The notes under the pieces are model-generated. The model was given only the letters and a program-made list of their open reading frames with translations. It was not told the DNA's origin and did not search any database. DNA of 45,980 nt from a virus: positions 1-45,980 of IMG/VR virus record IMGVR_UViG_3300017963_000377. One strand, 5' to 3'. This document shows, one piece after another, positions 25,580 through 38,907 of this stretch; within the stretch, counting starts at the first letter, position 1; every line of letters starts with the position of its first letter. A program made the translations under genes and the position numbers.

Positions 25580-25962
25580 TTATAAACCTCCACAATTTTG
25601 CCCTCTCTGTTTGTGTATTTACTAAAAGCATATAGAGCCGCCTGATGTACGCCTAGTGAACAAGATTCTAGTTGATTACCTACAAAAGCCTTAGGAATTA
25701 TTGCCCCTTCCTGAGCAATGAGCAACCAGACAGTTTTTCTGTAGACAGGTCTGCTAGTACCTATCGACCTAATCTCGGAAGTTGAAACGGAGTAAATAGG
25801 TTGATCCTCACCAAGATTCATAATAGTGTGATTTACTAAATCATATTTATCCTTAAAAGTATAAAACGCTTTAGAATATACGTAAGAGCAGGAAGGGTTT
25901 TCTTTCTCTAAGCTACATCCTATATGCATTAGCACTAATACTAACATTAATAGCTTATACAT
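25576..25962 (-). CDS. Lipoprotein of unknown function
   Basis: The 128-residue precursor has a short signal peptide and lipobox (LMHIGC, acylated Cys at residue 16), so the mature protein should be lipid-anchored. The mature part is alpha/beta with three further Cys residues. It overlaps the ThyX stop by eight bases, so it is translated in the same operon. Phage lipoproteins may be spanin subunits or exclusion factors. At about 112 mature residues it is longer than a typical o-spanin, and no i-spanin gene adjoins it. Confidence 0.65.
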   Translation of the reverse strand: MYKLLMLVLVLMHIGCSLEKENPSCSYVYSKAFYTFKDKYDLVNHTIMNLGEDQPIYSVSTSEIRSIGTSRPVYRKTVWLLIAQEGAIIPKAFVGNQLESCSLGVHQAALYAFSKYTNREGKIVEVYK

Positions 25963-26644
25963 TTATTTCCTCCCAATTTATTTCTGGTGCTCGCTCTAAC
26001 ATGAAATTACATTGTTCAAGCAAAGGCAGTGTGTAAGGTATATTACCAGCATCCCTCATTGCGTGCAACATTTTTATTGCTACAACACGTATTTCTTTTT
26101 GAGCATGTTTATCAAGTCTTTGTCTAAGAAAGTTACACAAGCTCACTAAATTCATCTGAATGCGTCTGGTTGTCATCTGACTTTGGGGAAGTACATTACG
26201 TAGTATTTCCCGTGCTCTACGTCTCCTTTCAGGATATACATCGCACACGCCCTCGTATAGATTTGCGTAAGCAAGCCCACTTGTACACACAGCGTCCCAA
26301 TACTCGTTAATACCAAGCCCAATATCCATATCATTCAAGTCATCAGGTGTGTATACATCTACATCAGATAGGCTACAATACCTTCCGCTCATACCAACAC
26401 AAGCATTTCTCATACGATGGGTCATAAGCTGATTACTTGCAAACAAGGGAAGTGTCATTTCAAAATCAAATGAAACAATTTCTAATGGAGACGTATGCCC
26501 TTTGTCAACGAGCATTTTAATAACACGCTGCTCGTCTTCTATTGTCCTATCCTTGCATTTGTCTGTACTTACCCATGCCCTGTGTGCAATATCCTTGTCT
26601 GTACCGTAGTATCCAAGAAGCCTCACTGAAATATCACTACCCAT
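25955..26644 (-). CDS. thyX: Flavin-dependent thymidylate synthase ThyX
   Basis: The 229-residue enzyme makes dTMP from dUMP using FAD, NADPH and methylenetetrahydrofolate. The ThyX signature appears as THR-x8-SGRY at residues 75-89; the first Arg of the usual RHR-x(7-8)-S motif is Thr here. The C-terminal substrate-binding block is clear (LPQSQMTTRR...N...FLRQRLDKHAQKEIR, residues about 152-185). The start has GAGGAG seven bases upstream, inside the 3' end of the HNH gene, which it overlaps by eight bases. A diverged copy of this gene's first ~20 codons lies beyond the HNH gene at 27271-27390. With the class II RNR it supplies DNA precursors. Confidence 0.93.
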   Translation of the reverse strand: MGSDISVRLLGYYGTDKDIAHRAWVSTDKCKDRTIEDEQRVIKMLVDKGHTSPLEIVSFDFEMTLPLFASNQLMTHRMRNACVGMSGRYCSLSDVDVYTPDDLNDMDIGLGINEYWDAVCTSGLAYANLYEGVCDVYPERRRRAREILRNVLPQSQMTTRRIQMNLVSLCNFLRQRLDKHAQKEIRVVAIKMLHAMRDAGNIPYTLPLLEQCNFMLERAPEINWEEINV

Positions 26645-27278
26645 TTATATACTCCTCTGGAAAGTTTAGGTGGTATATGTCTTTGTACAACTCCCAACTT
26701 TTAGCATCCCTAACTCTAGCAGCCTCCTCCTCAGTCTTGTAATATCCAAGGTGTAGGTTCTTTCCCTCGAAGGACAGTCTAGCAGCGTAAGGATTAAGCT
26801 TGTTATGACTTGAATACACGCCTTTGTACTTTCTTGTGTGCTTGTTTCTCGCATTTTCTGCCTGTGTACAAGCACGTAGGTTATCTATACGATTGTTCCT
26901 TCCATTGCCATCTATATGATCTATTATATCTGGAAGGTATCCGTGATGCATTAGAAATATTATCCTATGTGAAAAGTAACTTTGCGTATTGATAAATACT
27001 CTATAATACCCTGAACTGTGTGGCTTGCATGCTTGAGTGCCCGCTATCTTATTACTTCCTCTATCCTTTGTTCGGTAGAGTATTCCGTCTTCTACCCGGA
27101 AATTCTCTGAAGCGAAGTCAAGCAGCTCTTTACAGGTTAGTCTGTTGTGCTTTTTCTCACCTGTACGCTTACGCACATCGCTACACGCTCTCCCGCATAG
27201 TTTACGTGTTTTACTTTGCCACCGCTCACATGTAAACGTAGTTCCACACTCTTCGCATACCATCTCTATTTTAGGCAT
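26637..27278 (-). CDS. HNH homing endonuclease with AP2-like DNA-binding domain
   Basis: I choose ATG 27278, which has AGGAGG four bases upstream; the frame is open further to 27338 without a ribosome site. The 213-residue product has a CxxC...C...C zinc-finger-like N-terminus (Cys 8, 11, 28, 32), an HNH_3-type nuclease core (HRIIFLMHHGYLPDIIDHID then NNRIDNLR, residues about 104-135) and a C-terminal AP2-like domain (YKGVYSSHNK...HLGYYKTEEEAA, about 151-205). This combination is typical of phage homing endonucleases. The gene is wedged between a duplicated thyX 5' fragment and the intact thyX, and has probably invaded the locus. No group I intron core was identified. Confidence 0.9.
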   Translation of the reverse strand: MPKIEMVCEECGTTFTCERWQSKTRKLCGRACSDVRKRTGEKKHNRLTCKELLDFASENFRVEDGILYRTKDRGSNKIAGTQACKPHSSGYYRVFINTQSYFSHRIIFLMHHGYLPDIIDHIDGNGRNNRIDNLRACTQAENARNKHTRKYKGVYSSHNKLNPYAARLSFEGKNLHLGYYKTEEEAARVRDAKSWELYKDIYHLNFPEEYING

Positions 27279-27390
27279 AGCACCTCCTATCCGGCGATAC
27301 AGGCAAAATCTTGCCTGTAAATGCCCGTAGGGCAGCATCCTTATCTGTGCCGTAATATCCTAACAGTTTCACTGAAATATCACTACTCAT
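27271..27390 (-). pseudogene. Duplicated 5' fragment of thyX
   Basis: ATG 27390 opens a 39-codon frame whose first 18 residues (MSSDISVKLLGYYGTDKD) match the start of the intact ThyX at 16 of 18 positions. Homology then fades and the frame stops inside the HNH ribosome-site region. Most base differences in the matching part are synonymous, which points to divergence while coding or to origin from a related phage. It may still be translated as a short peptide. Confidence 0.85.
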
Positions 27391-27393
27391 GCT

Positions 27394-28173
27394 TTATTTT
27401 TCCCTTTCAAGAAATTGTTGTGCTTGAGATTTACTGAATGCTTCTTGTATACGTACATCTACTTGTGATATTGGTGTGAAGTTTCCTTCTCGGTCATATG
27501 TGCCAAGAGGTTTAGGAAGTAATGGACAGGATGAAAACGCTGCATCAATAGTCCACATCATCACCCTCACTTTCTTTCTTACTTGTTTTTGTATTAATTC
27601 AGGAGAACAAGTAGTAATGCTCATAGCATCTGCCACTTTCTCTGTAACATTATCTGTCCCATATATCCACCAATCATCTCGTATTTTAGCTTCGTATTCT
27701 GGAATAGAAAGCCCTATACGTTCAGCACTTGCCTTATGAAATTGTTGAATGGAGGACAATATCATCTTGTTAAACGAAGCCACCTGTGGAGCCTGTGTAG
27801 CTCTAAGTCCATAGCTTGCAGGATGTTGCATCAATATACTACCAGCTCCAACATAGCGTTTGTCGCAATTTTGCATTAATGTAAACGCAGCACTAGCAGC
27901 AAACTCTGCATAACATATTGTTTCCTTCCCACTATCCTTCATAGCCTGTATCATCTTGGCTGCAGACACAACACTACCACCGGGACTATTTACAAATATC
28001 GTAAGCTTCGGAGCCGTACTAAGCATAACACCACGAATAAAATCGCTCTCACTTGAAGAATTGATTTCCCCACTCAATACAATTACATTCTCCTCAAATG
28101 CAAGCTTAGGCCGTTCAGCAGCCATTGCTATAAAATTTATACACATTATCATTACGGCTAATATTATTTTCAT
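27394..28173 (-). CDS. Exported ClpP-fold serine protease
   Basis: ATG 28173 has AAGGAG five bases upstream; the frame extends to a TTG at 28191 without such a site. The 259-residue product opens with a signal peptide (residues 1-18, cleavage near AMA-A). It has the ClpP/SppA fold: oxyanion-loop PGGS at 64-67, nucleophile Ser in the AASAA segment (S94), His in LMQHP (H117), and an RDDWW-YGTDNVTEKVADAM block (166-184) like the catalytic-Asp region of ClpP. A C-terminal extension of ~70 residues is unassigned. Phage ClpP-like proteins usually mature heads in the cytoplasm. A secreted one among replication genes points instead to a periplasmic or membrane-protein target. Confidence 0.8.
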   Translation of the reverse strand: MKIILAVMIMCINFIAMAAERPKLAFEENVIVLSGEINSSSESDFIRGVMLSTAPKLTIFVNSPGGSVVSAAKMIQAMKDSGKETICYAEFAASAAFTLMQNCDKRYVGAGSILMQHPASYGLRATQAPQVASFNKMILSSIQQFHKASAERIGLSIPEYEAKIRDDWWIYGTDNVTEKVADAMSITTCSPELIQKQVRKKVRVMMWTIDAAFSSCPLLPKPLGTYDREGNFTPISQVDVRIQEAFSKSQAQQFLEREK

Positions 28174-31246: not shown

Positions 31247-33142
31247 TTATTTAATTGGGCAGCTTCCGCCTAAGCAATCTTGTATATCTAAATCCTCTCC
31301 AGCTGTAAGCTCTTCTTCGGATATGGTTGTGATTCCTTTTAGCATCTCCTCATACTGCTCCTTAGTAATTTCCTCATAGGGAGCTTGTATAAACCCGTGT
31401 TGTTTTTGTAAGAATGACACGCTCTTTATACTATTGTTATAGTTGGCGTGAAGCCATTGCTTTAACGCTTCCACTTCATTAGGCTCATACTCCACTGTAG
31501 CGGATATACTATTATCACTCCACTCTCGTTGAAGCCGTTGTATCACCTCAAGCTTATCTATGGCTGACATGTCCGCAGATACAGGCACACCTTCAGGCGT
31601 AGCACAAGGAAAACTCACAACAGATGTACGCTTATCTTGCTTACCATCAAACCCCCTAACAAACTCTACGGGGTAGTTATGACTCCTACAAAGCTCTACT
31701 AAAGGGTCACTGCTGGACATACGGATACGCCTAATATAGTAAGGGAAGAAAGCAGGATGCCACCCGGGAGTTACACCGGGAAGTAGTGCTTGAGTTCCGC
31801 TAGGCTTACTGGTAGTAAGTGCAATACTTACAGGGTAGTTGTTAGCCTTGCTATATTCTTTGTCGTACTCCTTAAGCCAAGTATACAACTCAGGTAGCCA
31901 TTGTCTTTGTTCTTCTGTAGCTTGTAAATACCCGCAAGATGCATCAATACCAATGCGATTATTGGTGTGGCATATTTTTTCTGTATCCTCGCTATGGCAA
32001 TCCATGTTGACAATAGCTTTAGTTACTTGGTACAGAAGTCTTGTATACTCTTTCAACCTGTCGAATGATTCTACGTTACACAAAAACACAGTGGCTAAAT
32101 TGCACGTCTCGTAGTTACATAAGCTGATTTCACTACAAGGGTTAGTGCCTGTTATTGTTACGTTTTTCTCATGCTCTGGGTCTTGCAATCTGTCCTTTGT
32201 TTGAACAAGATGTTTATTCCAAAGTCCAAACACTTCACAGTTAGGGTCATAGAAGCTATCCCAATACTGTTGCGGTAGCTGATTTATATCCGAGCATACT
32301 AACGTAAGATTGGCCATAGCTCTGTAGTTTGGAATGTTACCTTTTCCCCAGTTCTTACTGTCAAGAAATTGCATATCATCTACGTCACCTAACATTATCA
32401 AGCTTGACCTACGAACATTCCCGCTCACCACTATCTCACCTATGATACAGGCAATATCCATAGCATCTACGCTGCGTATTTTCTTATTTGCTCTACTGTT
32501 TAGTAGCTGGTTTATCTTCTGCATTCCTTCAATCAAGGGAATCGGGCCAGACGCTGTTCCTCCAAAGTTTTTTATAGGTTCCCCAGCAGCTCGTACACAC
32601 ACTGTGGAATACTCAAGTTCTCCCCCTCCATTAAAGTGCAGAGTGAGTAATCGTTCTAATAAGTCTACCCAACCTTCACGTGAGTCTGGGACGATATAAC
32701 GGGCATCCTTCGTGTTCTTATGTGTGAGCTTCACTTTACCCACTTTAGGCAGAGAGTATACGTATTCTCTTTGTATGTTAAATCCTACACCAGCTCCTAG
32801 CATCAAAGCATCGAATGCCCAGACAAAAGGTTTTACTGGCTCATCCACTACAGCATGAGCACAGTTTAGTAAGCTCATCATCCCAAGCTGATCTACGGTG
32901 CGTGTTCCAAGTTGCCACATAGCTCTGCCACTAACACTACCTTTAAGCTGAGAACGCATATGCCTGTATAGCGTCTGGTCTTCCTCACTCCAGTGTAGTT
33001 TTAGTTGTTGGCGTATAGCTTTCAGCTCCCTCTCAATTGTTTGTTCATAGGACTCTGTCCTATCTGAGCCTTCCCGCACTCGTCGTGCGTAGGTTCGCTT
33101 GAACGTAATCAGTCCAACTGGTCCCCAAGGCGTATTTGTCAT
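31247..33142 (-). CDS. Adenosylcobalamin-dependent (class II) ribonucleoside-triphosphate reductase
   Basis: The 631-residue enzyme makes deoxynucleotides without needing an NrdB partner. Residues fit the monomeric Lactobacillus RTPR-type family: first redox Cys in NCAHAV (C94), NPCSE with the radical Cys C336 and Glu E338, and the second redox Cys C347, exactly 11 residues after C336 as in that enzyme. The C-terminal shuttle pair is CLGGSC at the extreme end. AGGAG precedes the ATG. It depends on vitamin B12 made or imported by the host and, unlike class I enzymes, needs no oxygen. It is slightly shorter than the ~739-residue reference. Confidence 0.93.
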   Translation of the reverse strand: MTNTPWGPVGLITFKRTYARRVREGSDRTESYEQTIERELKAIRQQLKLHWSEEDQTLYRHMRSQLKGSVSGRAMWQLGTRTVDQLGMMSLLNCAHAVVDEPVKPFVWAFDALMLGAGVGFNIQREYVYSLPKVGKVKLTHKNTKDARYIVPDSREGWVDLLERLLTLHFNGGGELEYSTVCVRAAGEPIKNFGGTASGPIPLIEGMQKINQLLNSRANKKIRSVDAMDIACIIGEIVVSGNVRRSSLIMLGDVDDMQFLDSKNWGKGNIPNYRAMANLTLVCSDINQLPQQYWDSFYDPNCEVFGLWNKHLVQTKDRLQDPEHEKNVTITGTNPCSEISLCNYETCNLATVFLCNVESFDRLKEYTRLLYQVTKAIVNMDCHSEDTEKICHTNNRIGIDASCGYLQATEEQRQWLPELYTWLKEYDKEYSKANNYPVSIALTTSKPSGTQALLPGVTPGWHPAFFPYYIRRIRMSSSDPLVELCRSHNYPVEFVRGFDGKQDKRTSVVSFPCATPEGVPVSADMSAIDKLEVIQRLQREWSDNSISATVEYEPNEVEALKQWLHANYNNSIKSVSFLQKQHGFIQAPYEEITKEQYEEMLKGITTISEEELTAGEDLDIQDCLGGSCPIK

Positions 33143-35174: not shown

Positions 35175-35429
35175 TTAATTGTCCTCCAACTTATCTGTGA
35201 GTAGTTTTTCAAATACAAAGAATAGCTTGTCCTTATCCCCTTGGTAATGAGAAATATAATTAGCCAAGCGATTACAAAGTGTAGCAAGTATAAGCTCATG
35301 CTTTGTAGGAAACTTATCAAACATAGCAGATGTGATTCTATCTATGTCGTTCGCATATGCTATCACCTCCAATGCCTCCTTGTCCAGAAGTTTTTCTATA
35401 ATACTTATTACGTCGCCCTCTTTTTCCAC
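35175..35429 (-). CDS. Unknown helical protein (84 residues), GTG start inside the polymerase gene
   Basis: I choose GTG 35429, which has AAGGAGGAGGACTT immediately upstream; the frame runs to 35483 without a ribosome site. It overlaps the polymerase C-terminal gene by 22 bases. The product is helical (ISIIEKLLDKEALEVIAYAN). No family is recognised. Confidence 0.55.
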   Translation of the reverse strand: MEKEGDVISIIEKLLDKEALEVIAYANDIDRITSAMFDKFPTKHELILATLCNRLANYISHYQGDKDKLFFVFEKLLTDKLEDN

Positions 35430-37339
35430 AAGTCCTCCTCCTTGTTGTAAATTAAAGCATGTTGTAAATTTCTTTCTTGACAAATTCTAACGTATCGTCC
35501 ATACCACGATTCAACATCTCCTAAGTCGCACTTATCCTCAGCAAATGTTTTATGTATTGCAGCCTTACCTGTCATAGGCACGTCTCCTTTGAGAATATCA
35601 TTAAGCCAATCAACGGACTTGTTCATAACATCCGCCACTTCCTCAGCATCACCTTCAGCCACTTCAACAGTGGAGGCATCGTGCCAGTCTACAATAGAAG
35701 GCCAGAATTGTACACCCCTTTCTTGTAGCTCTGTCATATAAATATTTATCCACATCATTAGTATAATATGTCCACTACTCTGAACTACCCGATTTAACAC
35801 ATCCTTCTCTTTACCTTCAGGAACACACACTGGCATACCTACACCATTCAACACCCAACCGCCGTTACGTTTCAATTGCCGTTCCAGAAATCTAACATAT
35901 TCTCCCGTAACAGCATAAACATCCGTAAGCGAACGATGCATGAATTCCACTTCATCCAGTGTCTTATCGTGCCCTTGTAACAGAAGTATCTTCTGTAGTT
36001 TCTTTGGACGTGCCCCGTAGTTAAAGGCTAACGTAAACGCTTTGAATAGTCCACGTAGTCCCTTATGTTTCTTCTTAATTATTTTAATAACATCCGCATT
36101 GCTGTTGTATGGATCATATCCTTCGTCAAGAAAAGGTTGACCAATTCCTGCCACTTGTGATCCATTAAAAATGTACCCGTCATTGGGCTTTGCATTCGGC
36201 CCAACCAGTGCAAGCTTAGCAGGGTCTTTACTTAGTCCAGCCAACACCTTATCCTCCAAGCAATTTCCAGATACAAATACATGTCCGTTTTGTCTGACAA
36301 GTAAGTAGCCGCTAGGTACTGATACACAGTATATTTTTCCTTTGTAATGCTCAACTCCCTCGTCTATCTTAGGCCTCAATCTTACTTGCGTGGCTTTTCT
36401 GATTCGTAACTTATAGAATTTAAATGGCTCTTTTCTAAAGTTAGTGCTTCGAATCTCTACCACTTTTGTAGCTTTATATCCAGACCTAACTAAGTACGCC
36501 TGTACTTCATCAATTGTCTCCTCATTCATCTGTCCGTATATGCAGCTGTTTGAATTGAGTGTGCCATCCCAGAACGTCAGCTCCCTGACGAAGATATCAG
36601 CCATGTCAGGACTCAGTCTTTTTAGATTTAAACGCTTGGTTTTCCAATCGAGGAGTTCCGATTGAAATTTTATGTGATTCCACCTATAGCAACCGGGATG
36701 CCCTTTGTAGGTTCTTCTCATTTCGTCCCCTAAAATTTCCGTAAGTCTCTCAACTTTTCTTGGCTTCTTAACCTCAATCTGAAAGTAGTTCTCCTCCTTT
36801 CGTTTAGAGCCGTCTGCTTGAAGTAACACCGCCATCACTAACTCTCGCTCTGATACGGTAATAAATTCCGAATGTTCAACCACGGTGTTTATGGCTATAT
36901 GACTTCCCGCTGTAGGCACTCCGTCCGATGCTTTTGTTTCTCTTCTCCATTTGTCAGACCTTCCATCTGCTTGTCCTGTCCAGAGCATTCTGTGGTTAGG
37001 TGTTACTCGTAACTTTCCTAGTGCTCTGTTCCTGAACGTACAAAGAACGCCTTCATAATCTCTACTGATGTAATTAGTAAACTCAGTATAACTTCCACGT
37101 AATGTGTTGGGGTCTACTTGAACCACTTTGTTCGTGGATTTTAGTTGACTGAAACTTACCCAACCTTCCGAGGTTAGTACATCTGTACCTTCGGGGTAGC
37201 AGTCAAAATCTAAAGTGACAAATGTGTATCCCCTCCGAGCCACTAAGCTCTCTAGCCCTCCATATACTTTCGGTACTTGTGTGATGTTTAAACGGTTTCC
37301 ACTCAGCTCTTCGGATACCAACTCCTCTTCTTCATTCAC
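35408..37339 (-). CDS. Family-A DNA polymerase, C-terminal (palm/fingers) half, with intein in motif A
   Basis: GTG start at 37339 has AGGAGG five bases upstream and overlaps the stop of the N-terminal gene by eight bases (GTGAATGA). The 643-residue precursor contains a 313-residue intein at residues 47-359. The spliced product is 330 residues and reads TLDFD-CLEDKVLAGLS across the junction, aligning with motif A (DYSQIELRVLAHLS). Motif B-type LFKAFTLAFNYG is at 431-442 and motif C WHDAS at 552-556 (HDA rather than HDE). It should pair with the N-terminal protein at 37332-38771 as a two-subunit replicative polymerase. Confidence 0.9.
   Translation of the reverse strand: MNEEEELVSEELSGNRLNITQVPKVYGGLESLVARRGYTFVTLDFDCYPEGTDVLTSEGWVSFSQLKSTNKVVQVDPNTLRGSYTEFTNYISRDYEGVLCTFRNRALGKLRVTPNHRMLWTGQADGRSDKWRRETKASDGVPTAGSHIAINTVVEHSEFITVSERELVMAVLLQADGSKRKEENYFQIEVKKPRKVERLTEILGDEMRRTYKGHPGCYRWNHIKFQSELLDWKTKRLNLKRLSPDMADIFVRELTFWDGTLNSNSCIYGQMNEETIDEVQAYLVRSGYKATKVVEIRSTNFRKEPFKFYKLRIRKATQVRLRPKIDEGVEHYKGKIYCVSVPSGYLLVRQNGHVFVSGNCLEDKVLAGLSKDPAKLALVGPNAKPNDGYIFNGSQVAGIGQPFLDEGYDPYNSNADVIKIIKKKHKGLRGLFKAFTLAFNYGARPKKLQKILLLQGHDKTLDEVEFMHRSLTDVYAVTGEYVRFLERQLKRNGGWVLNGVGMPVCVPEGKEKDVLNRVVQSSGHIILMMWINIYMTELQERGVQFWPSIVDWHDASTVEVAEGDAEEVADVMNKSVDWLNDILKGDVPMTGKAAIHKTFAEDKCDLGDVESWYGRYVRICQERNLQHALIYNKEEDLWKKRAT
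36263..37201 (-). mobile_element. Intein with LAGLIDADG endonuclease in polymerase motif A
   Basis: The 313-residue intein starts with Cys1 (37199-37201) and ends with Asn (36263-36265) before an extein Cys (36260-36262), as required for splicing. Block B is LRVTPNHRML, with Thr and His in their usual places. The end is KIYCVSVPSGYLLVRQNGHVFVSGN; the usual penultimate His is Gly. LLQADGS (intein residues about 126-132) and LTFWDGTLNS (208-217) are two LAGLIDADG/DOD motifs, so the intein may still home. Splicing is predicted, not shown. Confidence 0.93.
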
Positions 37340-38771
37340 CAGAACCTCCTGATATCCTTGTAGTTACAGACGCCACAGGTTTTGTCTGTAAGTGTAGACA
37401 CTCATCGATGCTGGAGTTTTCAAGCCAAGCCGCAATATATGTTCCCACTTTCGCTGGCTTTGCACTCTTCAGCAGTCCTTTACCAATATCGCCGTACGCC
37501 CCAAGCACACCCTTCCCTGTTGCAGGATTACCTTCTTTTGTATACTCGTGTACAGGATAATTGCAATGGTCAAACAACAAGGCCGCCTTATCCTGCGAGC
37601 TATTGGGATTGAAGAACTCATTCAATGGTTGATTTATCAACGTGTCCATTTTACCCCTCCATTTGCCCCAGTTGATTGTCTGTTCTGGTGGCGTATTTTC
37701 TATTTCGTGTTTACGTGCGAGCCAATTCTGATAGCTCTTGCTTTCCTTCCCTGCCTTTGTATACTGCTTAGGCGGTGGACGTAATTCTTTTTGTTTCTTA
37801 TATTTCACTGGCTCTGCTTGCTCAAGCTCCTGTATTAGCTTTTGCTTTTTGATTCTACAAAACTCTTGCACTTGCGGAATTTCACACAGAAGCTTTTGTT
37901 GTTCCTCACTCTCTTCAATACAAGCATCGTAATAGGCCGCTAAGTTTTCTCTGTTCACAGCCATACCGTGGATTTGCTGTATACAAAATTCACGACACAC
38001 TGTCAGATGTATATTAGTTAGTTGTCCTTCTGTGTATATTTTAAACCTCTCACGCACAGGCTGGAATACATACTCACTAAGATACATTGTGGATATGGCA
38101 TCGAGTGCGCAGTAGTGTCCAAGTATTTCAAATGGTGCACGCCACATTTCATCCTTCTTTGCTCGTGGTTCACGCTCCCCTGTTCGCTTATTCTTCACCA
38201 TTGTGTAGTAGCCATTGCTTATCATCCACTGGTCAAGCTCTACATCGCCCTTAGCATCCCAGCCAAGTAGCTGTAATTGTGCTGGTTTTAATCCCCACTT
38301 CTGATTATCGAAGCCCTCATTTGCTAAATATCTATAGGTAGAGAATACGTCCTCTACAAAATTTGGCCATTTGTCTCTAATGTGTTTTGTGTTCGCAGGA
38401 TTGTCTCGGAGTGCAAACGCTCCTTCAAATGATATATTAAATACAGCTAATGGAACATCGTGTCTCCATAGCTCGTATGTTATTTCTTCCCATAGTCCTT
38501 CGTATGATGATGTGAAGTCTACACAGAAAGCTCCTCTGCTATCTGCATACGCAGCACACATCACCTGTGTATCCCAATGCGCCTTAGCTCCACGTGTTTC
38601 AATATCGTAATAGATTGTGCCCTGATGTTCTTTCCATATGTGTTCTATTTCTTTTATACTCTTCACGTTTGAATACATTCTGATTGGATGGGTGCGTGGA
38701 TTCCAAGGCTTATCCACTGGGGAAATTAGAACAAAGGGAAGCTTACTCTGTCCCCTCACATTCGTCGCCAT
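37332..38771 (-). CDS. Family-A DNA polymerase, N-terminal half (3'-5' exonuclease and thumb)
   Basis: I choose ATG 38771, after AGGGGGAAGAAT; the frame is open to 38804. The 479-residue product has exonuclease motif I YYDIE (D56, E58), a motif II-like FNISFEGAF (111-119) and motif III HYCALDA (Y220, D224), so proofreading is expected. A helical thumb-like region follows. The C-terminus stops at TTRISGGSGE, just where family-A enzymes continue into T-x-GR-S...PNLQNIP; the next gene resumes with LNITQVPK. The gene therefore breaks between thumb and palm. Confidence 0.88.
   Translation of the reverse strand: MATNVRGQSKLPFVLISPVDKPWNPRTHPIRMYSNVKSIKEIEHIWKEHQGTIYYDIETRGAKAHWDTQVMCAAYADSRGAFCVDFTSSYEGLWEEITYELWRHDVPLAVFNISFEGAFALRDNPANTKHIRDKWPNFVEDVFSTYRYLANEGFDNQKWGLKPAQLQLLGWDAKGDVELDQWMISNGYYTMVKNKRTGEREPRAKKDEMWRAPFEILGHYCALDAISTMYLSEYVFQPVRERFKIYTEGQLTNIHLTVCREFCIQQIHGMAVNRENLAAYYDACIEESEEQQKLLCEIPQVQEFCRIKKQKLIQELEQAEPVKYKKQKELRPPPKQYTKAGKESKSYQNWLARKHEIENTPPEQTINWGKWRGKMDTLINQPLNEFFNPNSSQDKAALLFDHCNYPVHEYTKEGNPATGKGVLGAYGDIGKGLLKSAKPAKVGTYIAAWLENSSIDECLHLQTKPVASVTTRISGGSGE
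37337..37350 (-). promoter_or_regulatory. Ribosome site and GTG start joining the two polymerase genes
   Basis: AGGAGG (37345-37350) lies five bases before GTG (37337-37339), and the first gene stops at TGA 37332-37334. This layout favours translational coupling or reinitiation for the second half. The GAATGA junction would need a +1 shift to fuse the frames, and the ribosome-like site is 7 bases from that codon, which is farther than in the prfB frameshift. Confidence 0.7.
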
Positions 38772-38907
38772 ATTCTTCCCCCTCATCTTGTTGTCCATAC
38801 ACATCGTCTATTATTAATTGATAGATTTCTAAAGGTAAGGCACTTATAAATACGTTTCTAATAAGTCCGTCATCCGTGTACGTATGTAACTTGCACGCTG
38901 TGCTCAT
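38743..38907 (-). CDS. Small acidic protein (54 residues) overlapping the polymerase start
   Basis: ATG 38907 overlaps the upstream stop (ATGA), and the frame ends 29 bases inside the polymerase N-terminal gene. The product is MSTACKLHTYTDDGLIRNVF followed by a helix and a very acidic tail (QQDEGEEYGDECEGTE). Overlaps on both sides match the operon style here. Function unknown. Confidence 0.6.
   Translation of the reverse strand: MSTACKLHTYTDDGLIRNVFISALPLEIYQLIIDDVYGQQDEGEEYGDECEGTE

Follow-up and report, generated by a model that had tools for sequence, protein, structure and literature searches.

The common view of how homing genes persist in essential genes is that they reside inside introns or inteins, or else that they sit beside genes. 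HNH endonucleases of the I-HmuI kind are found in self-splicing group I introns of Bacillus phages, and enzymes of this type are usually intron-encoded. The free-standing seg and mob genes of phage T4 are intron-less nuclease genes beside their presumed targets, and free-standing phage homing genes are expected to move by break repair, co-converting flanking DNA (PMC2988022). In Aeromonas phage Aeh1, mobE splits nrdA, and the target works as two polypeptides (cited in PMC2988022). In fungal mitochondria, mobile endonuclease ORFs (mORFs) have been described in atp6 of Allomyces macrogynus and in atp6, atp9, cox2, and nad3 of Glomus (PMC3630166). The copies of the atp6 mORF share 63.5% of their nucleotides and 91% of their amino acids, a high nucleotide divergence with low protein divergence (PMC3630166).

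We analyzed a 45,980-base virus record assembled from mixed DNA (IMG/VR record IMGVR_UViG_3300017963_000377), referred to here as the window, in which an HNH homing-type endonuclease gene lies between two copies of the start of thyX. Like the mORFs, the window element and sister elements built on related HNH genes appear to combine an endonuclease ORF in an essential gene with a diverged second copy of a gene end acquired from elsewhere, which restores the gene while the native end stays behind as a dead copy. Whereas mORFs duplicate the 3' end of the gene (the C-terminus), the window element duplicates the N-terminus, although C-terminal forms as in mORFs exist among the HNH relatives (L118/L121 and L416). 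The mitochondrial atp6 mORF is reported to encode a LAGLIDADG enzyme rather than an HNH enzyme, and mORF nucleases do not capture the start codon of the gene, unlike the HNH gene of the window. The window shares with the T4 seg and mob genes an intron-less nuclease beside its presumed target but differs in that the insertion lies within the coding start and a remnant is left behind; the review of free-standing phage homing genes makes no mention of gene duplication (PMC2988022). As with nrdA and mobE, a homing gene sits in coding sequence with neither intron nor intein, but nrdA stays split, whereas thyX is restored to one full reading frame. Compared with I-HmuI, the HNH gene of the window has no intron, a different, AP2-like C-terminal domain, and a replacement gene start. 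Within the literature available without subscription, including PMC10448857, PMC2988022, and PMC12724721, we found no description of 5'-end duplication in phages.

The duplicated start of thyX

On the minus strand of the window, a ClpP-like (head-maturation-protease-like) gene at 27394 to 28173, probably the original 5' neighbor of thyX, is followed by a thyX remnant, the HNH gene, and an intact thyX. The remnant ORF (27271 to 27390) has 40 codons, which are thyX-like from codon 1 to about codon 24 and then run on into unrelated sequence. The intact gene (25955 to 26644; 229 amino acids; Pfam Thy1, 5e-35) starts with the second copy of these codons (26573 to 26644), which probably came with the HNH gene. 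The remnant begins MSSDISVKLLGYYGTDKDAALRAF (start sequence MSSDISVKLLGYYGTDKDAA), and intact thyX begins MGSDISVRLLGYYGTDKDIAHRAW. The first-pass annotation of this DNA had noticed that the first 18 ThyX residues occur twice, at 27390 and 26644, with the endonuclease gene between, and the alignment bears this out: 16 of 18 amino acids and 45 of 54 nucleotides are identical over 18 codons, and 19 of 24 and 55 of 72 over 24 codons. Aligned locally, the two regions reached a top score of 83, and a scan of the whole window with the remnant gave a background mean of 17.6 (SD, 7.2) and a top unrelated match of 30. The similarity sets in essentially at the ATG, the sequences upstream of both copies being unrelated, and it fades past codon 24, with weak similarity to about codon 28 across a 6-nucleotide gap.

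Within the window, pS between the remnant and the intact copy is 0.53 and pN is 0.16, a difference with weak statistical backing when the window is taken by itself (p = 0.026). Pooled across loci, remnants and intact copies likewise differ mainly at synonymous sites (pS, 0.91; pN, 0.16), which suggests that both copies evolved as working genes before they were joined.

Overlaps of 8 nucleotides chain the three reading frames. At the first junction, ATGCCTAA, the HNH gene opens with ATG and the remnant closes with TAA; at the second, ATGGGTAG, thyX opens with ATG and the HNH gene closes with TAG. The intact thyX thus starts inside the endonuclease stop, as first described; the remnant, which had been said to end at the endonuclease ribosome site, does end near it, but its stop reaches the HNH start codon itself. 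By sequence, the ribosome-binding site of the HNH gene is AGGAGG (27283 to 27288, minus strand), and that of intact thyX is GAGGAG (26652 to 26657, minus strand), within the 3' coding end of the HNH gene. Directly upstream of the HNH ribosome site, at the end of the remnant, lies a perfect 9-bp hairpin, TACAGGCAA-GATT-TTGCCTGTA (27298 to 27319, minus strand), in a region that folds better than its shuffles (z = -2.2). At another HNH locus (L055), a CCCCT...AGGGG inverted repeat lies between the remnant and the HNH start.

Searches for close relatives of this thyX returned none in phages (416 records, all below 60% identity), in viral contigs (matches at about 23 to 42%), or in bacterial genome contigs (28 to 40%). 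A scan with the ClpP gene likewise found none. With the ribonucleotide reductase, relatives came up at about 50%, and a close thyX was absent from all of them. The B12-dependent ribonucleotide reductase itself (31247 to 33142, minus strand) is about 50% identical to those of uncharacterized IMG/VR phages (L125 to L137) and is useful for placing the lineage of the window phage. Elsewhere in the window (35408 to 38804, minus strand), a DNA polymerase is apparently split into two ORFs that overlap in GTGAATGA (37339 to 37332), the first matching phrog_17 positions 653 to 978 and the second matching positions 1016 to 1232. The second ORF holds an intein-like insert at about residues 46 to 361, with C at its start and VFVSGN-C at its end, which weakly matches an intein structure.

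The HNH endonuclease and its sister loci

The HNH gene (26637 to 27278, minus strand; best start, 27278) encodes 213 amino acids with a Cys-rich N-terminus, an I-HmuI-like HNH_3 core, and an AP2-like C-terminal part. It matches Pfam HNH_3 (PF13392) at 4e-17 and phrog_99 at 2.8e-49, and its core carries the conserved DHxDGN...N motif, in which D120, H121, and N129 are invariant. The core matches I-HmuI (PDB 1u3e) both by profile (4e-8) and by fold. At the family level the protein has a C-terminal AP2-like domain: Pfam AP2 (PF00847) was found in 5 of 11 aligned relatives (best, 4e-10) and fell below threshold on the window protein alone, and a profile search matched plant AP2 proteins, including 7wq5. 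An AlphaFold model (mean pLDDT, 79) resembles the AP2 structures 1gcc and 7et5, and the top-ranked Foldseek groups for this model, none with an E value below 0.001, were I-HmuI and AP2 proteins, the same as by profile.

Because no close relative carries this thyX, sister HNH genes were used to test the idea of a replacement start. In 176 distinct HNH loci of the same family, the flanks were searched for a pair of start codons, one on either side of the HNH core, that are followed by matching residues. Start-anchored scores of at least 33 were obtained for 6 of the 176 loci (L345, L055, the window, L347, L350, and L367) versus 9 of 3,494 mismatched pairs, and the few top null scores probably come from flanks holding other HNH genes. 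The duplication spans 27 residues after the Met at rusA (L345), 23 residues at a DUF1364/ninI-like gene (L055), and 23 residues at thyX in the window; L347, where the upstream copy starts at TTG, is a weaker case. An additional case with a one-codon offset (L114) lies at a virion structural gene. The layout of the window is thus also found at rusA, the DUF1364/ninI-like gene, the virion structural gene, and at least two others (L350 and L367). At rusA, ATGA overlaps chain the upstream gene, the remnant, the HNH gene, and rusA; in L114 and L350 the remnant and the HNH gene are joined in one reading frame, and in L055 the two lie 50 nucleotides apart.

A 3'-end form also occurs. In L118 (1900 to 2760) and L121 (1535 to 2481), the C-terminus of the HNH protein (EASNRNIDRSTQ) duplicates that of the upstream gene (EASNRSIDRATR). 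By eye, this preceding gene resembles the gene upstream of the HNH gene in L055, and the junction may therefore attract HNH genes. In a second such form (L416, 930 to 1593), the HNH gene and a short ORF upstream both end in LKLQSGELE*.

No clear duplication was found at nine HNH loci of cultured phages, and the same was true of many HNH relatives. In Klebsiella phage vB_KpnM_Earwig_ER32 (L336), MAKLTK occurs before the HNH gene (1418) and at the start of a DNA methyltransferase (1979), a short, possible duplication with a marginal score that, if true, would permit bench tests in a cultured phage. Three further candidates (L052, L065, and L083) were rejected as low-complexity or repeat matches.

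Empty sites in a virion structural gene family

The gene behind the HNH gene of L114 is a virion structural gene (phrog_3287) whose family comprised 80 loci; with L232 and L233 added, 79 were usable. The presence of the HNH gene is polymorphic in this family, 5 loci being HNH-bearing and 74 HNH-less. In L234, which is the same contig as L114, the HNH ORF begins MDYQRLRTPLTN, exactly the start of the HNH-less genes L235 and L236, and the same upstream gene precedes this start in all three. The intact gene of L234 starts MADYQRLRTP, likewise in the HNH-bearing L232 and L259. The remaining HNH genes begin ATGAGCGA, the commonest start among HNH-less genes, and the genes upstream differ from one of these loci to the next. 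By likeness to L114, L235, and L236, the remnant in the window is probably the resident thyX's own start. The native end left as a remnant and the inserted end foreign and functional are both found in the sister loci, and the anatomy of the window agrees.

Through the HNH start codon, the flank of each of the five HNH-bearing loci resembles a different HNH-less lineage, at 73 to 98% over about 128 columns. Identical columns number 125 of 128 for L259 and L268, 107 of 127 for L233 and L262, 108 of 128 for both L266 with L272 and L234 with L235, and a modest 97 of 133 for L232 and L265. Behind the HNH gene, codons 1 to 11 of the intact gene are on average 82% identical among the five carriers, versus 70% for the gene body (permutation p = 0.0015). 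In L234, L259, and L266 the body tracks its own lineage (L259 and L268 are 79 to 90% identical from codon 25 on); L232 and L233 are less clear, and the body of L232 has no clear match to one lineage. Judged from sequence, this pattern is the apparent footprint of a short replacement start travelling with the HNH gene, and the five loci may not be five independent insertions.

HNH-less relatives that nonetheless carry the duplicate, which the first-pass annotation had named as evidence against its reading, were absent from this family: a duplicated start occurs in 0 of its 74 HNH-less loci. At synonymous sites, the HNH-linked starts of this family diverged no more than ordinary lineages do, a comparison that gave no sign of additional recoding by which a replacement start might evade cleavage; ordinary divergence may suffice for immunity.

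Origin and meaning of the layout

We consider it probable that the window holds an intron-less homing cassette, whose HNH gene uses the resident start and supplies a replacement start for thyX. That a free-standing homing gene with its own thyX start would have displaced the resident one, as proposed at first reading, is strongly supported by the sister elements, with their resident-start remnants and HNH-linked start haplotype, and not by thyX relatives. An I-HmuI-like HNH-AP2 endonuclease gene would have been inserted into the 5' coding part of the resident thyX. The endonuclease would cut an uninterrupted thyX near its start, and transfer would proceed by break repair, in which an HNH-bearing phage serves as template and both the nuclease gene and the gene start next to it are copied in. 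Of the two exchanges, the right one would lie within the homologous body of the gene and the left one within the short stretch at its start. Codons 1 to about 24 of the resident gene, with their own ribosome site and upstream neighbor, would stay behind as a leader serving the nuclease, and the cassette would bring a divergent thyX start fused behind the endonuclease, which recombination in the gene body joins to the rest of thyX. One full thyX would remain, translated from the ribosome site inside the HNH 3' end and presumably coupled to translation of the HNH gene, and the divergent replacement start would escape cutting.

A group I or other intron would turn the remnant into exon 1, spliced into thyX beyond the second copy, which would itself be intron sequence. 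This would suit an I-HmuI-type enzyme, most of which are encoded in introns, and the resident ribosome site still present at the remnant, but no Rfam match, and hence no ribozyme core, was found in 2 kb even at E values up to 5, in line with the earlier claim of an insertion without an intron. A ribozyme would have little space, with only about 40 nucleotides between the thyX-like stretch of the remnant and the HNH ATG and with the end of the HNH gene overlapping the beginning of thyX; in addition, intact thyX comes with a start codon and ribosome site of its own, and at L114 and L350 the HNH gene reads on in frame from the remnant. An intron is accordingly very improbable, and an intein is rejected because the remnant, the HNH gene, and thyX lie in different frames. 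Local duplication of the thyX 5' end in the window genome, with the HNH gene landing later and the remnant decaying, would give the same gene order, which the window has no relatives to exclude directly. We regard it as unlikely, given that the copies differ mostly at synonymous sites, both in the window and pooled, unlike the decay of a dead copy, that HNH-less virion loci lack the duplicate, and that the intact start is a haplotype common to other HNH carriers.

The duplication could also persist because the remnant has a regulatory role as a leader for the HNH gene or thyX, acting through coupling or hairpin attenuation. The remnant stop overlaps the HNH start in the window (ATGCCTAA) and in L345 (ATGA), the hairpin at 27319 to 27298 is strong, and hairpins control T4 homing genes (PMC2988022). 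However, remnant length and the HNH junction vary widely (fused, overlapping, or, in L055, separated by 50 nucleotides), which is what a by-product would show, and regulation as the reason for the duplication seems quite unlikely; a leader role is compatible with a homing cassette, not a substitute for it. A metagenome assembly chimera of two strain haplotypes, conceivable for an IMG/VR contig assembled from mixed DNA, is hardly credible: the same arrangement recurs at other genes on unrelated contigs, with in-frame or 4- to 8-nucleotide overlapping junctions, and misassembly is not expected to give clean overlapping start and stop codons.

A layout in which a gene end is replaced is known at 3' ends in fungal mitochondria and recurs here at several phage genes, mostly at the 5' end. 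The homing-cassette layout is another solution to life in an essential gene, combining insertion into the gene with a new gene end, the nuclease taking the resident start codon. For annotators, it can explain short false ORFs upstream of phage HNH genes. With both HNH-less and HNH-bearing sites in the virion gene family, the cut site, the co-conversion tract, and divergence-based immunity become directly testable. Whether intron-less homing elements at gene starts, which borrow the translation start and give back a cleavage-resistant replacement, make up a general class in phages is at present an even call. If true, such elements would be nature's counterpart to rescue-type homing gene drives, and in addition to introns and inteins there would be a third means of residing in an essential gene.
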